Shown: positions 2,653 through 14,087 of the stretch, one piece after another
Layout: each line of letters begins with the position of its first letter
How positions within the stretch are numbered: position 1 is the stretch's first letter
From: Thermoanaerobacterium sp. RBIITD
GTDB lineage: Bacteria; Bacillota; Thermoanaerobacteria; Thermoanaerobacterales; Thermoanaerobacteraceae
Direction of reading: 5' to 3'
Assembly (NCBI RefSeq): GCF_900205865.1
Contig: NZ_LT906662.1
Location: 620,001-684,000 of the forward strand
Length of the DNA: 64,000 bases
Position numbers and translations under genes: made by a program
Notes under the pieces: generated by a model
The model's database searches: none
Told to the model about the DNA's origin: nothing
Seen by the model: only the letters and a program-made list of their open reading frames with translations

Positions 2653-2682
2653 TTGACTTTTATTTTTTAAATATATTATAAT
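2653..2682 (+). promoter_or_regulatory. Sigma-A-type promoter of the endonuclease gene
   Basis: TTGACT (2653-2658) and TATAAT (2677-2682) are separated by 18 nt, close to consensus. The first ATG of the downstream frame is 34 nt past the -10 box. Confidence 0.6.
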
Positions 2683-2715
2683 AGAAAAAACGTATGTTCG
2701 AAAGTTGGTGCTATT

Positions 2716-3729
2716 ATGGATAAAATGGAATATCTACAAAAATATTATCCTAATACAGATAATAAAATTTTAGCAAATTATCTCGGTATATCTGAGCAAT
2801 CTGTCAGAAGATTGGCATCAAAAAATAATATATAGAAAAGTACAGAATACATAAAAAAGCAGCATGAATTACTTTTAAAAGTGAAAGAAGCAAAATACCT
2901 TTCACTTATTCCGAATATACGACCAACTAATTATCAATTAAATATAATTGTCGGTAGTATTTTGGGTGATGGAAATTTATCATACGCGCCGAGAAGTAGG
3001 AATGCTTATTATAGAGAGCATTTTTGCCAACAGCAATATGAATATAGACTGTGGAAATGTACACAGTTAAAAGATTTAGGCTTTAAGATAAATAAAAATA
3101 ATACTCTGCAATCAATATCTCATCCAATATTCTCAAATTTATATGAAAAATTTTATATTGATAATCGAAAAACCATTACTTATAATAATATTAAATTTCT
3201 TAATGATGCAGTAGGTCTTGCATGTTTTTATATGGATGATTGTAGCCTAGTAATTTCAAAAAATAAAAAGCCTAATATAACTGTTAATCCTATTATAACA
3301 TTATATACCTTAAACTTCTATGAAAAAGAAAATATTATTTTACAAGAACATATTTATAAAACTTTTAATGTTAAATTCAATTTAAAAGAGCATCCAGATG
3401 GTAAAAAATATATTTTAACAATTGGAAAAAGAGAAGAGGTCTTTAATTTTACAGATATTGTAAAACCATATGCTTGTCAAATATCCTGTATGGATTATAA
3501 ATGGAATATTGATAAAAGAATTATTGAAGAATGTAAAAAGGATAATAGAATAAATTTAAGTAATTTTTACAATAGAAAATTCTTATCATATACAAATGAT
3601 GATATAAGTAAAATTATTGATTTGAAAAATAATGGTTACTCCGATAGAGAAATTGCTAATAAGTTAAATAGATCATATTGGGGTATCGTATGGAAAATAA
3701 GAGATCTAAAAAAGAAAGATAAGATTTAA
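2716..3729 (+). pseudogene. LAGLIDADG homing endonuclease with an in-frame TAG
   Basis: One frame runs from ATG 2716 to TAA 3727-3729, interrupted by a TAG at codon 40 (2833-2835). The N-terminal piece (residues 1-39) is a helix-turn-helix (ILANYLGISEQSVRRL) and the homology continues straight past the TAG. The body carries two LAGLIDADG-type motifs: IIVGSILGDGNLS about 60 residues after the TAG, and LACFYMDDCSLV about 120 residues further. Both keep the acidic catalytic position, although the second has DC where DG is usual. A second helix-turn-helix ends the protein (DREIANKLNRSYWGIVW). The intact part could also start at GTG 2881 and give 282 residues. It points towards the flagellin gene but lies outside the group I intron there. 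Whether active enzyme is made (restart at 2881, or readthrough) is unknown. Confidence 0.8.
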
Positions 3730-3748
3730 GGGAGGCAAAGCCTCCCTT
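3728..3748. terminator. Bidirectional hairpin between endonuclease gene and hag
   Basis: AAGGGAGGC, a 3-nt loop and GCCTCCCTT form a perfect 9-bp stem. It overlaps the endonuclease stop codon and lies just after the flagellin stop (3753) on the other strand. The T tracts are weak on both sides. Confidence 0.6.
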
Positions 3749-3752
3749 ATTG

Positions 3753-4977
3753 TTATCTGAGTAATTGTAAAACTGTCTGTGGTTGTTGATTTGCCTGAGC
3801 TCTTCCAGGCCGGTCCCTTTCGGATACCGAATAGATCATATCTTCATCCTATCTATCGTTTGATAGGAGCCGGGCACTTCGGGTTAATCCCTACGGACTT
3901 CATCACCAAGGGCTTTATGCCTTTAGGTGGTATGTCCTGATCGTTGAACCTTCTCCAACCTTTCAGTACAGGAGCTTGGCTGCTGATTGCCCATATCCTT
4001 ACACTTTTCAACCTATCACGCTTATCCTTTCGGATTACGTTGTAGGGTGCGAGGCTCTAAGGGTTTCCCAGCAATTCACCCGGTAGTAATCCTGAAAATT
4101 ACTCTTCAGGACGCCTGTGCGAAACGGCTTATGCAGCCATTTCCTCAAGCATTGCTGTCGCTGCCTGATTCAGTATGTTGTCTTTTGTGAATTCCATCAT
4201 CTCTTTAGCCATATCAACATCTCTTATACGTGACTCTGCAGCTGTTAAGTTTTCTGATGCTGTGCCAAGGTTGTTTATAGTGTGTTCAAGTCTGTTTTGA
4301 AGTGCACCAAGACTACCTCTTTGTGCTGATACTGCATTTATCGCATTATCAATAGCACTTAAATCACTTGCTATTGAAGCTGTGTCATAGCAAGATGAAA
4401 CCGCTAATAATGTTCCACTTATAGCGCCAGTATTGTCAACACTAACTGATAATGCACCTACTGTTAAAATAGAAGCAGATGACATATTGCTAATTGATAA
4501 CTGAACTGTTTGATTTCCATTTGCACCAATTTGGAATGTTAAAGCCGAAGTTCCACTAATTGTTCCATCTAATAAATTCTTAGTATTAAATTGAGTTTGG
4601 CCTGATATTCTATTAATTTCTGCCGCTAACTGTCCTAATTCAGATTGAATATTTTTTAAATCATCTGGAGTATTAGTACTATTTCCAGCTTGTACAACAA
4701 GTTCTCTCATTCTTTGTAGTATTGATGAAGTCTCATTTAATGCACCTTCTGCTGTCTGAATTAGTGATATACCGTCTTGTGCATTTCTTTGTGCCATGTT
4801 AAGACCGTTGATCTGGCCTCTCATTTTCTCTGATATAGCAAGACCTGCTGCATCGTCACCAGCTCTATTGATTCTGTAGCCTGATGAAAGTTTCTCTAAA
4901 GATTTCTGTGTGTTTGTGTTATTAATGGAAAGTGCTCTCCATGCATTTAAAGCACTTATGTTGTGGTTTATTATCAT
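3753..4977 (-). CDS. hag: Flagellin, split by a group I intron (exons 4977-4148 and 3801-3753)
   Basis: Major filament protein, exported by the flagellar type III system. Exon 1 starts MIINHNISALNAWRAL, has the D0/D1 helices (SSGYRINRAGDDAAGLAISE) and a short central domain, then the C-terminal ESRIRDVDMAKEM helix. Read through, the frame runs into an intron and stops as MLEEMAA at 4129. Joining position 4148 to 3801 instead gives the canonical flagellin ending MLAQANQQPQTVLQLLR with a stop at 3753-3755, 292 residues in total. This is the usual length for flagellins lacking D2/D3. An AGGAGGAAGGA ribosome site precedes the ATG. It is the last gene of the flg-fliW-csrA-hag block and has its own sigma-D-like promoter and a CsrA-type leader. 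Confidence 0.92.
3802..4147 (-). ncRNA. Group I self-splicing intron in hag (346 nt)
   Basis: All four conserved core elements of group I introns are present in order on the minus strand. P is GAATTGCTGGGAAAC (4077-4063), Q is AATCAGCAGCC (3988-3978), R is GTTCAACGATCAG (3949-3937) and S is AAGATATGATCT (3844-3833). The predicted 5' splice site follows a U (exon ...AUGCU). The internal guide AGGCGU (4116-4111) pairs with AUGCUU and gives the expected U-G wobble at the splice site. The intron ends in G (3802), as required. It carries no internal open reading frame. A LAGLIDADG gene lies just beyond the 3' exon on the opposite strand. Splicing restores the flagellin frame exactly. Confidence 0.93.
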
Positions 4978-5884: not shown

Positions 5885-6442
5885 TCATATTGATCGGTTA
5901 AAGTTCTTACCGACGTAGTCTATCTTTATTGAGGGATACTGGATCATGTATATGTTGATACTACCGGGTATAGCCTTGATTTCTGGTTTATGCGGTATTG
6001 CATTTATTTCTACTCCGCCCTCAATCCAGTTTATATTCAAATATCCATCAAACCAAATTTTTGGTCTTGATTTTGGCATAAGATCTACATTGAAATTTGT
6101 ATCCTGGATTCCCGCTTCTTGTGCGAGCTCTGTAATAACATCCTGATGGTTTTCTATTGATGCCAATGCATCACCATCATCTACAATTTTGCCTATTGCC
6201 TCAAGACCGATTTCAGCACTTTTTCCTGCTTCATCGTGGTTTAAGTCGAATATGCTTTTTAAACCGGATTCATAGAAACACTGATACTGGTCAATGTGTA
6301 CTTGTGGAAGCTTATGGTCTATCTCCATTTTTGCTGGTACTTGTTTTATATCAAGGTCTGCATTTTTGTTATTTATATTAATTTCGGCAGGAGTAGTATC
6401 GATACCTATCCTGCCGTATGTTTGATGTATTGATATGTTCAT
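5885..6442 (-). CDS. DUF6470 (YviE-like) flagellar operon protein
   Basis: A soluble protein of about 185 residues. The open frame begins at 6454, but the ATGGAGGAAATC before the ATG at 6442 supplies the GGAGG ribosome site, so 6442 (MNISIHQTYGRIGID) is preferred. The N-terminal third has alternating residues in strands of the TPAEININNKNADLDI type, and the C-terminal third contains KPEIKAIPGSINIYM. This beta-rich pattern is that of DUF6470/YviE, found between flgL and fliW in Bacillus and relatives. Its function is not established. Confidence 0.78.
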   Translation of the reverse strand: MNISIHQTYGRIGIDTTPAEININNKNADLDIKQVPAKMEIDHKLPQVHIDQYQCFYESGLKSIFDLNHDEAGKSAEIGLEAIGKIVDDGDALASIENHQDVITELAQEAGIQDTNFNVDLMPKSRPKIWFDGYLNINWIEGGVEINAIPHKPEIKAIPGSINIYMIQYPSIKIDYVGKNFNRSI

Positions 6443-6490
6443 GATTTCCTCCATTATGGTTAAGGATTAACAATAGTATCCCTTTTGGGC

Positions 6491-6520
6491 CAGAGATTCA
6501 TCGCTTTCGCTCTGAATGAC
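6491..6520. repeat. Short interspersed repeat, copy 2
   Basis: Reads CAGAGATTCATCGC then TTTCGCTCTGAATGAC. This is the clearest copy of the family, lying between DUF6470 and flgL. Confidence 0.5.
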
Positions 6521-6532
6521 AATGGAAAAGCA

Positions 6533-7423
6533 CTATTTTAAGAAGTCGATAAGTGAAGGCTCAATTATTCTCGCACCTGCTGCAAGAGAAGCTCTATAGA
6601 CATTTTCGTCCATCTTTAGGTTTGTTATAACTTGAGCCATATCTGCATCTTCATTTTTTGAAAGAAGTGTTGTAAAGTTATAATTGTCGCTTTGTAGCCT
6701 ATTTTTGGTCAAATCAAGTCTATTTGATTTGGCACCTGCATCTGCTCTTATTGAAAGTACATTTTCAAGCTCTTTATCAATATCAGCAATGGTATTGCTC
6801 ACGGCTTGATGATCACCACTATTTAATGCATTTTTAAGATTATCCATCATATTTAAAAGCTGTGATGTGCCACTTGATACATCAAATACTTTATCACCAG
6901 TTACATTAATCTGCATTTTATTACCGCCTGCACCTACTTCAAATTTTATTGTTCCATTGTCTCCGCTATATGTATTTGATGTTTCATTAAATGGCTGTGT
7001 ATCTGTCTTAAATCCTGCGAATATGTATCTACCGTTGTACTGGGTATTCCCCACCTGTATCATTTGCTTTTTCAGTTGATCTATTTCTGCTGCTATATTC
7101 TGCATATCAGTTTGTGTCAATGTACCATTAGAACCTTGTACAGCAAGGTCTCTCGTTCTTTGCAATAAGTCACCTATCTGGCCAAGTGATGAATCAGTAA
7201 GATCAAGCCATGATTTTGCATCATCGACGTTTTTTGTATATGCATCATTTCTTGACATGTCTGTCCTTATCCTAAGGCTATTTGCGACAGCGACAGGGTC
7301 ATCTGATGGTTTATTAATCCTTTTTCCTGATGCCAACATGTCCTGGTCTTTTTGCATGCGTTCAAGGTTATTGTTGTAGTCGTTCATGAAGTTCATAATA
7401 AGCATGTTATTCGTTACGCGCAC
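6533..7423 (-). CDS. flgL: Flagellar hook-associated protein 3 (FlgL)
   Basis: 296 residues, the hook-filament junction protein. The N-terminus MRVTNNMLIMNFMNDYNNN and LASGKRINKPSDDPVAV is the conserved flagellin-like D0 region. The C-terminus ends in a flagellin-like helix (ENVYRASLAAGARIIEPSL). A GTG start fits the AGGTAGG site upstream. The start lies 9 nt from the flgK stop, so the two are translated from one message. Confidence 0.94.
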   Translation of the reverse strand: MRVTNNMLIMNFMNDYNNNLERMQKDQDMLASGKRINKPSDDPVAVANSLRIRTDMSRNDAYTKNVDDAKSWLDLTDSSLGQIGDLLQRTRDLAVQGSNGTLTQTDMQNIAAEIDQLKKQMIQVGNTQYNGRYIFAGFKTDTQPFNETSNTYSGDNGTIKFEVGAGGNKMQINVTGDKVFDVSSGTSQLLNMMDNLKNALNSGDHQAVSNTIADIDKELENVLSIRADAGAKSNRLDLTKNRLQSDNYNFTTLLSKNEDADMAQVITNLKMDENVYRASLAAGARIIEPSLIDFLK

Positions 7424-11040: not shown

Positions 11041-13254
11041 TCAATTTTCCACCATAAAGCTTAATGCTTTTCTTAGTTTTGGCAAAAGACCCGAATATCT
11101 TTTTGATATTAGGTTATTATCTACCATATGTTTTAAATATTTTTCTTGTCCTACAATTACAACTAATTTTTTGGCTCTTGTTACAGCTGTATACAAAAGA
11201 TTTCTCGTCAATAGCATTGGTGGGCCAAAGCTCATAGGCATTATTACGGCAGGAAATTCGCTTCCCTGGCTTTTATGAACCGTAACACAATATGAAAGAT
11301 TTAGCTCATCTATATCAGAAAAATCGTATTTTACATATTTATCATCGTCAAAATATACGTTTAGTTCCTGTGCATCATTGTCGATAGACTCTATAACTCC
11401 CATGTCCCCATTGAAAACCCCTTCACCTTTTTCATCACCTTTTACCCATTTCATCTTGTAATTATTTTTTATTTGCATAACTCTATCGCCAACCCTAAAT
11501 ATAAAGTCTTTCATAGGTTTTTCATTTAATCCTTTTTTTGGTGGGTTAAGGCATTTTTGAAGTTCGTTATTGAGGTTTACAACGCCTATAAGCCCCTTTC
11601 TCATAGGGCTTAATACTTGTATGTCTGACATGGGATCAAAACCGTATGCATCAGGAAGTCTCCTTTTATTAAGGTCCAGAATAATTTTTAAGATATCTTC
11701 TTGGCTATTTGCATTTATAAAGAAAAAATCATTTTCTTTATCATTGAATGTAGGGTACTCTCCATTGTTTATCTTGTGGGCATTGACAACTATAAGGCTT
11801 TCTTTCCCCTGGCGAAAAATTTCCTTTAACCTTATTACTTTTACTAAACCACTGTCTATTATATCCCTCAATACATTCCCGGCACCTACTGATGGCAATT
11901 GATCAACATCTCCGACAAGTATTAGCCTCGAGCTTAAAGGAATAGCCTTTAAAAGAGCATTCATTAAGAGAATATCTATCATAGATGCTTCATCGATTAT
12001 TATTACATCTTCTGTTATTGGATCTTTGTCATCTTTGCCAAATCCTCTTCCTTCTTCATCCGAATAGGAATATTCAAGTAATCGGTGTATTGTTTTTGCT
12101 TCATAACCTGTAGCTTCACTCATTCTTTTTGCAGCTCTTCCTGTAGGAGCTGCCAAAGCTACTGATTTACCAAACTTTTTAAAAAGTTTTATGATAAAGT
12201 TTATAATTGTCGTTTTCCCTGTCCCAGGACCACCTGTTATAATAAGTATAGAATTCTTTATAGATTCTTCTACTGCGATTTTTTGATTTTCAGCTAATCT
12301 TATTCCCATCTCGTTTTCTATTTTCGATATTTCTTTTTTTATATCGATGTCGCCTGGTTTTACATCTGTCAATGTCATCTTCATTATTTTATCGGCAGTA
12401 TTTGTTTCTGCAGTATAATATGGAATGTAATAAACGCCATGTGATCCATCTTCAAATGTTTCAAACATAGCCTTTCCGTTTTGTACTAATAATACAAGGG
12501 AATCATTTACTTCATCCTCAGTTACATCGAGTAATCTTGCAGTCTCTTTTGCAAGCAAATCCATAGGTACGTATGTATGGCCATTTGCGGCGTATTGCAT
12601 CAAAACATATCTCGCACCAGAAGATATCCTATATGCTGAATGTGCATCGACACCCATACTAGATGCAATCTTGTCAGCAGTACGAAATCCGATGCCAAAT
12701 ATCTCATCAGATAGCCTATACGGATTTTGCTTTATTAGGTTTATTGAATCGTCTCCGTATTGTTTATATATCTTTATGGCATTTGTAGTAGATATGCCAT
12801 AGCCTTGCAAAAATACCATTACTTCACGAAGTCCCTTTTGCTTCTCATAGGATTCTGATATCATTTTGACTCTTTCATCGCCTATACCCGGTATTTCTGT
12901 AAGCCTTTCAGGATGTGTCTCTATTATATTAAGTGATTCAAGACCGAATTTTGTAACTATCTTTTTAGCCATAACAGGTCCTATGCCTCTTATAAGGCCT
13001 GATGAGAGAAACCTTTCCATGCCATAAAGCGTTGCGGGTGCAACCATTTCATATTTTGAAACCTTAATCTGCTCACCATAATCTGGGTGTGTTGTCCATT
13101 CGCCTTCAATTTTTAAAGTCTCACCGATACCGACATATGGCATATATCCAACTACAGTAATGGAGTCTTCTTTCGAATTTATTTCAAGTACTGCATATCC
13201 ATTTTGATCATTCTTATATATTATTTCTTCAACCGTACCTTCTATTTCAACCAT
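11041..13254 (-). CDS. recD2: RecD2 (RecD/TraA-type) ATP-dependent DNA helicase
   Basis: 737 residues. The order is an N-terminal OB-like region (VEGTVEEIIYKNDQNGYAVL), helix-hairpin-helix repeats (GIGPVMAKKI, EIPGIGDERVKMI, FGIGFRTADKI), then the SF1B helicase core. Walker A reads GGPGTGKTTIINF, motif Ia APTGRAAKRMSEATG, Walker B IIDEASMID, motif III LVGDVDQLPSVG and motif VI YTAVTRAK. It is a 5'-3' helicase of the RecBC-independent RecD2 class, thought to act in repair and mismatch-related processes. Length is normal for the family. Confidence 0.95.
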   Translation of the reverse strand: MVEIEGTVEEIIYKNDQNGYAVLEINSKEDSITVVGYMPYVGIGETLKIEGEWTTHPDYGEQIKVSKYEMVAPATLYGMERFLSSGLIRGIGPVMAKKIVTKFGLESLNIIETHPERLTEIPGIGDERVKMISESYEKQKGLREVMVFLQGYGISTTNAIKIYKQYGDDSINLIKQNPYRLSDEIFGIGFRTADKIASSMGVDAHSAYRISSGARYVLMQYAANGHTYVPMDLLAKETARLLDVTEDEVNDSLVLLVQNGKAMFETFEDGSHGVYYIPYYTAETNTADKIMKMTLTDVKPGDIDIKKEISKIENEMGIRLAENQKIAVEESIKNSILIITGGPGTGKTTIINFIIKLFKKFGKSVALAAPTGRAAKRMSEATGYEAKTIHRLLEYSYSDEEGRGFGKDDKDPITEDVIIIDEASMIDILLMNALLKAIPLSSRLILVGDVDQLPSVGAGNVLRDIIDSGLVKVIRLKEIFRQGKESLIVVNAHKINNGEYPTFNDKENDFFFINANSQEDILKIILDLNKRRLPDAYGFDPMSDIQVLSPMRKGLIGVVNLNNELQKCLNPPKKGLNEKPMKDFIFRVGDRVMQIKNNYKMKWVKGDEKGEGVFNGDMGVIESIDNDAQELNVYFDDDKYVKYDFSDIDELNLSYCVTVHKSQGSEFPAVIMPMSFGPPMLLTRNLLYTAVTRAKKLVVIVGQEKYLKHMVDNNLISKRYSGLLPKLRKALSFMVEN

Positions 13255-13333
13255 GTTTATCTCCTGCTTCTCAGTTTTTCGATTTCTATCAATTAATATT
13301 GTACATTATTTTAGTCATTATTTGAAGTATAAA

Positions 13334-13912
13334 TCACATCTTTTCGATTCTAAATTTTATCTTGACTAATTCTTCGTATATAAGTGCGATATCCGCTTTT
13401 GTTGCAGGAAGATTATACATCGCCTTATCATTAATATTATTTAACGACTTTAAATTAGTAAAAAATGTTTTCATCATAGAAGCATTTCTCATATGTCTTT
13501 CTATCGATGCCTTTTTTTGTAGTATCTGTATGCTTGTATTACCAATATAAATCGTACAAAAGGCACCATTTTCGATGATTTTACTTATTTTCTCAAAATA
13601 TACATATCCATATGCCGTATCTTTCTCCACTCTAGGTATCCTTGCTTTTAATTGTATTAAAGTGAAATCCTGTGCAAGTGGAATTGGGAAGGCATTTCTT
13701 ATTCCAAGGCTTTTTGCGTACTTTTCCCTTATTGCGTTTATATCAACTGCATATTTCTTTAATGTCTTATTTAAACAGCTTTTTACCCTACATTTTATAT
13801 ATGTAGTTTTGCCATCAATATTAATTAGCTCTGTTCCATTTCCATATTCATCTAAATAAACAGGTAAAATTGCAAGATATATATCAGGTATTTCAATGCC
13901 TCTCATTTTCAT
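13334..13912 (-). CDS. Hypothetical protein, possibly ComK-like
   Basis: 192 residues and basic, with no signal peptide. It starts EIPDIYLAILPVYLDEYGNG, has an acquired-strand pattern KTTYIKCRVKSCLNK, then FPIPLAQDFTLIQLKARIP and TAYGYVYFEKISKI. The general layout (an N-terminal IAVLP-like strand, a central proline-rich loop before conserved strands) faintly recalls the ComK competence regulator family. I cannot confirm this by eye. It is divergently transcribed from the HD-GYP gene across a poly(T) tract. Treat it as unknown with a weak ComK hint. Confidence 0.55.
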   Translation of the reverse strand: MKMRGIEIPDIYLAILPVYLDEYGNGTELINIDGKTTYIKCRVKSCLNKTLKKYAVDINAIREKYAKSLGIRNAFPIPLAQDFTLIQLKARIPRVEKDTAYGYVYFEKISKIIENGAFCTIYIGNTSIQILQKKASIERHMRNASMMKTFFTNLKSLNNINDKAMYNLPATKADIALIYEELVKIKFRIEKM

Positions 13913-14012
13913 TTCTCCTTTTATACGAACATTAGTTCCTATTTATATTATAAAGGAAATTTTGTTTTAGTCAAGATCTCGGTATATTTTAAATCCTTAC
14001 AACACTTTTCTG

Positions 14013-14087
<75 letters not shown>

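Follow-up and report, generated by a model that had tools for sequence, protein, structure and literature searches.

Collaborative homing, in which an ORF-less group I intron and a separate, nearby endonuclease gene spread together, has been reported in T3/T7-like phages and for the cyanophage psbA gene (PMC3984707, PMC10448857). Group I introns are also known from the flagellin genes of Geobacillus stearothermophilus and thermophilic Bacillus (Hayakawa and Ishizuka, 2009, 2012, as relayed in PMC3984707). No partner endonuclease is described for these flagellin introns in the literature searched, in which the two original studies are represented by the account in PMC3984707. For collaborative homing on a bacterial chromosome, our search of the open-access literature returned the phage cases only.

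Here we describe a flagellin (hag) locus that resembles the phage systems in combining an ORF-less group I intron with an endonuclease gene close by, and that, unlike the introns of Geobacillus and Bacillus as described in that literature, has a candidate partner enzyme. It differs from the phage cases in being chromosomal, in residing in a flagellin gene, in employing LAGLIDADG enzymes and in occupying two insertion sites that go with different enzyme families. The enzyme genes lie downstream of the host gene, either convergent with it (site B) or on the same strand (site A). In the phages the enzyme targets the intron insertion site, as the hag enzymes may do.

Results

A LAGLIDADG gene converges on an intron-containing hag gene

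The window, the whole 64,000-nucleotide stretch of Thermoanaerobacterium sp. RBIITD DNA that was analyzed, is part of a complete 3.4 Mb genome (G000), the rpoB of which is sister to those of the remaining genomes of its genus. As the original prediction held, a LAGLIDADG endonuclease gene (HEG-B) lies outside the hag intron, on the opposite strand and convergent with hag, and the 346-nt intron itself contains no ORF (Table 1). HEG-B and the hag stop codon are 23 bp apart, and the HEG-B stop codon abuts the terminator hairpin common to both genes.

Table 1. Features of the hag and HEG-B locus, with coordinates as positions in the window
Feature	Coordinates	Strand	Basis
Promoter-like TTGACT - 18 bp - TATAAT of HEG-B	2653..2682	+	Read from sequence; layout also in G002
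LexA/SOS-like box AAACGTATGTTC, 1 mismatch to GAACNNNNGTTC	2688..2699	+	Sequence
LAGLIDADG endonuclease gene HEG-B, interrupted	2716..3729	+	Pfam LAGLIDADG_2, 81 bits
Premature TAG, codon 40	2833..2835	+	Sequence; present in genome assembly too
First LAGLIDADG motif (VGSILGDGN), conserved	2950..2976	+	Alignments
Second LAGLIDADG motif (VGLACFYMDDC)	3211..3243	+	Alignments
C-terminal helix-turn-helix-like region	3592..3675	+	HTH_38, 19 bits, below Pfam cut-off
Terminator hairpin common to hag and HEG-B	3730..3746	.	Read from sequence; kept after hag in relatives
hag 3′ exon (AQANQQPQTVLQLLR, stop)	3753..3801	-	
hag intron at site B (ATGCT^AGC), group I, no ORF	3802..4147	-	RF00028, 59.3 bits
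hag 5′ exon	4148..4977	-	

The intron ends, and with them the predicted splice junctions, were placed using the sequences of 12 relatives, which lack an intron at site B and in which hag reads unbroken across the junction. Insertion falls within the codon that follows the Met of ...AMLAQANQQ, giving the boundary sequence ATGCT/TGAGG...GGAAG/AGC. A group I core structure is present, the 5′ exon ends in U and the intron ends in G; 101 pairs were predicted by RNAalifold from 13 homologues, 38 of them with compensatory changes. When the intron stretch was searched alone, it scored 59.3 bits against the Rfam Intron_gpI cut-off of 50, but an Rfam scan of the whole window did not list it. A mosaic origin of this intron between two genera was considered and dropped, the signal being too weak to claim.

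HEG-B is a double-motif protein, and its window copy is in decay

Members of the HEG-B family carry two LAGLIDADG motifs with catalytic Asp residues in a single chain, the arrangement of double-motif monomers. The Pfam LAGLIDADG_2 match spans codons 76–240, and a helix-turn-helix-like region lies at either end of the protein, the C-terminal one being absent in several distant members. A profile of 11 family members matched I-SceI in the PDB (E ~1e-6), which likewise has two motifs per chain. I-SceI is encoded within its own intron, whereas HEG-B sits outside and has the added helix-turn-helix-like ends. The AlphaFold model (two sequences) was poor in the core, with a mean pLDDT of 50, and confident in the C-terminal helices.

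Uninterrupted full-length relatives, 76–82% identical, are present in G002, G004, G012 and G014. Pairwise dN/dS among full-length copies is 0.12–0.32, which indicates purifying selection. A phage origin of the gene was rejected: no relative was found in viral contigs, and phage matches were only ~30% identical. Separately, a distant LAGLIDADG gene (L106 of G094, 6351–7292) lies between two parts of an apparent phage capsid gene and is possibly intronic.

The window copy is open from end to end apart from the TAG at codon 40, a stop that had been noted originally and may be a sequencing error. The proposed ancestral codon, AAG (Lys), did not hold, as relatives carry Arg at this position. Both catalytic Asp residues are retained, but the final Gly of motif 2, found in 10/10 aligned relatives, is Cys in the window copy, which also differs at further positions that are invariant among relatives. 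The TAG and the Gly-to-Cys change make the enzyme probably inactive. The suggested restart at GTG 2881 is unlikely because the site lacks a ribosome-binding sequence (Shine-Dalgarno pairing of −0.8 kcal/mol versus −11.4 at 2716) and relatives have Ala there. The idea of recent decay fared better, backed by the TAG, the change that ends motif 2 and remnants of the gene in eight relatives; the window gene appears to be dead or dying, with a recent and probably complete loss of function.

HEG-B accompanies the site-B intron in relatives and across the phylum

The 3′ end of hag was compared across 20 genomes of the family. The site-B intron is accompanied by full-length HEG-B in five of them (G000, with its TAG, and G002, G004, G012 and G014) and by decayed HEG-B in G005, G007, G008, G011 and G015, with a group II-like insert between the decayed gene and hag in G015. 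Only G006 has the intron and no HEG-B trace, and an IS200-like gene lies downstream there. Among the genomes intronless at site B, G001, G009 and G016 hold an HEG-B remnant, that of G001 having the same deletion as G007, and G003, G010, G013, G017, G018 and G019 hold no trace. Any trace of HEG-B is thus found in 10/11 intron-positive and 3/9 intron-negative genomes (p = 0.012), and all five full-length copies adjoin an intron-positive hag (p = 0.03). G008 was retained but discounted, as it is a metagenome assembly whose short contig resembles the other genus in both hag and intron.

A sample of 398 genomes of the phylum was then searched twice, with the HEG-B profile and, separately, with an intron covariance model: seven had both elements, two HEG-B only, three the site-B intron only and 386 neither (p = 1e-11; the association p-values ignore relatedness and so overstate independence among related genomes). 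The association of gene and intron, on which the original prediction had staked trans homing, is therefore present both in the family and across the phylum. HEG-B together with a site-B intron also occurs in G020, G146, G242 and G312, members of four other families. The layout in G146 and G242 is window-like, with convergent HEG-B directly after hag, and in G312 the gene is 3 kb downstream. The G020 copy is frameshifted, has a substitution at one catalytic Asp and sits on a different contig, where it adjoins a gene that follows hag in G013. A third, distant type of LAGLIDADG gene lies downstream of the site-B intron in G368 and G471, again convergent.

A second enzyme family is paired with a second insertion site

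Homologous introns occupy a site 72 bp upstream in hag (site A, GTTGAT^ATGGCC, RDVD^MAKE) in G009, G110, G154, G210, G295 and G417. Four site-A carriers have a LAGLIDADG gene of a different family, HEG-A, on the hag strand 0.1–1.2 kb past hag; the copy in G110 is frameshifted. Among the 398 genomes, four had both site-A intron and HEG-A, one the intron only, none HEG-A only and 393 neither, so that full-strength HEG-A is found in exactly the four genomes named first. No crossed pair, HEG-A with site B or HEG-B with site A, was found in these 398 genomes. The introns at the two sites are ~79% identical (G009). Pairing of A with A and B with B means that the enzyme family tracks the insertion site, the best reason to suppose that each enzyme recognizes the site of its intron.

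Several other arrangements were observed. The hag gene of G009 (L089, 861–1440) has an intron at site A. Its site B is empty and has intron-type sequence; of HEG-B, only the leader and start codon remain behind the terminator. A single hag with introns at both sites is present in G500 (L204, 7455–8235), with no HEG recognized within 7 kb downstream. Related introns lie ~4 nt further downstream in L105 (G042, which has two hag genes), L182 (G417), L205 (G438) and L211 (G464). They follow a complete or near-complete flagellin C terminus, e.g., AQANSMPQGVLQLLR and a stop, with a second one after, PQANQQPQGVLQLLR and a stop; unspliced and spliced messages may therefore encode different flagellin ends.

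The pairing has exceptions

The rule that a full-length HEG occurs only with its intron held in the family and failed outside it. In one genus, G132 and G334 carry a full-length HEG-B gene 2.5 kb downstream from a hag that has no intron; in another, G469 and G470 have full-length HEG-A near flagellins without a site-A intron, in G469 at 5 kb from a site-B intron. Conversely, most of the new flagellin introns in a fresh class of 113 genomes (those of G438, G441, G464 and G500) had no recognizable HEG in the vicinity. HEG-less introns were more numerous there than in the first sample, so the intron often outlives or lacks an enzyme. In the exceptional genomes, the enzymes may be silent or the sites resistant; alternatively, the enzymes are able to spread alone. 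In G435 (L220, 5141–5850), a 57-nt piece of intron 3′ end and an HEG-A fragment lie downstream of an intronless flagellin gene and read as relics of a lost intron-enzyme pair.

HEG-B has moved between genera, and exon flanks are uniform beside the intron

Between the two genera, dS is 0.66–1.17 for HEG-B and 2.3 or saturated for rpoB; divergence this far below that of rpoB shows lateral transfer of HEG-B. Homology of the HEG locus is limited to the stretch from ~11 bp before the start codon to just after the hag terminator. The same 15 bases, AGCTCAGGCAAATCA, follow the insertion site in 11/11 intron-positive family genomes, whereas intronless genomes vary (chance 5e-4 by label shuffling). Such uniform flanks fit co-conversion of exon sequence along with the intron, although selection for P10 pairing could also produce them. 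In six genomes (G005, G006, G007, G008, G011 and G015), the intron is present with a dead or absent HEG, and an intron that outlasts its enzyme matches the homing life cycle.

LexA-like boxes precede several endonuclease genes

The leader of the window gene contains a LexA/SOS-like box (Table 1), and GAACTAATGTTT is found upstream of lexA in the same genome. Four genes, HEG-B of G146 and HEG-A of G110, G154 and G295, have an exact box ≤31 bp from their start, and boxes with one mismatch lie ≤40 bp from the start in four more leaders, the window included. Box-bearing leaders thus come from two enzyme families (window 2688–2699; L149, L179, L180 and L181). The background of exact boxes is ~1 per 80 kb across the loci retrieved, and 4/13 HEG leaders is far above chance, with a value of 2e-11 that is post hoc, the pattern having been noticed after the fact. 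The leaders of G012, G014, G469 and G470 contain no LexA box. Control of the endonuclease gene by the SOS response is plausible from these leaders; no report of a LexA-controlled homing endonuclease was found in the literature searched.

Elsewhere in the window, an exact LexA-like box, GAACATTAGTTC, lies at 13927–13938, just upstream of an apparent operon (11041–13912, − strand) of a 192 aa gene followed by a RecD2-like helicase gene. A T run of ~70 between two genes, at ~14015–14086, is either a tract that varies or an artefact of assembly.

Discussion

We consider it probable that this locus represents collaborative homing on bacterial chromosomes and that the window copy is a decaying, free-standing, double-motif HEG-B. 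Intact HEG-B would probably cleave flagellin genes that lack the intron, at ATGCT^AGC in hag, the position that the intron occupies, and donor-templated repair would then copy the intron, a short stretch of 3′ exon and the adjoining HEG gene into the recipient. The ORF-less intron and the endonuclease outside it would thereby spread jointly. Once the site is filled, the enzyme would be expected to decay and then be lost, while the intron stays. A broader proposal, of a family of flagellin trans-homing systems in which ORF-less introns at two sites each have their own LAGLIDADG enzyme and cutting is timed by LexA and the SOS response, is more tentative, and we rate its chances at somewhat less than even.

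The genomes with an enzyme and no cognate intron (G132, G334, G469 and G470) and those with an intron and no enzyme (G438, G441, G464 and G500) weigh against trans homing and keep in contention the alternative that the endonuclease gene is an independent, free-standing homing gene that spreads on its own beside flagellin genes, by intronless homing at some site close to hag, and that the intron simply exploits the same conserved and widely shared gene. Remnants beside hag genes intronless at site B (G001, G009 and G016) and the variable position of the gene, 2.5–3 kb away in G132, G334 and G312, point in the same direction. Independence would leave unexplained, however, why HEG type tracks intron position and why all five full-length HEG-B copies in the family adjoin an intron-positive hag, and we regard it as unlikely. 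Linkage to the intron could also mean that the HEG-B protein is a trans-acting maturase required for splicing. Some LAGLIDADG proteins are indeed maturases. Against this, conserved introns persist in the six family genomes in which the gene is dead or absent, and the enzyme type follows the insertion site even though the introns at the two sites are so similar; a maturase role is hardly credible.

A different question is whether the window copy still yields an active, mobile enzyme, shortened by restart at GTG 2881 or made by readthrough of the TAG. The catalytic core, codons 76–240, lies downstream of the TAG, and synonymous exceeds nonsynonymous change on the window branch (pN 0.04, pS 0.19). 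The restart codon nevertheless lacks a ribosome site and corresponds to Ala in relatives, and the last Gly of motif 2 and several otherwise invariant residues are changed, which makes an active product improbable. Collaborative homing with a decaying window copy is the reading that we prefer.

A chromosomal system of this kind would make directly testable how introns and endonucleases come together. In thermophiles that can be cultured, it has been gained, has decayed and has been lost repeatedly; there are two insertion sites and two enzymes, and relatives without the intron could serve as natural targets. The LexA-like boxes suggest that homing may be timed by DNA damage; if this is true, cutting would coincide with induced recombination repair.
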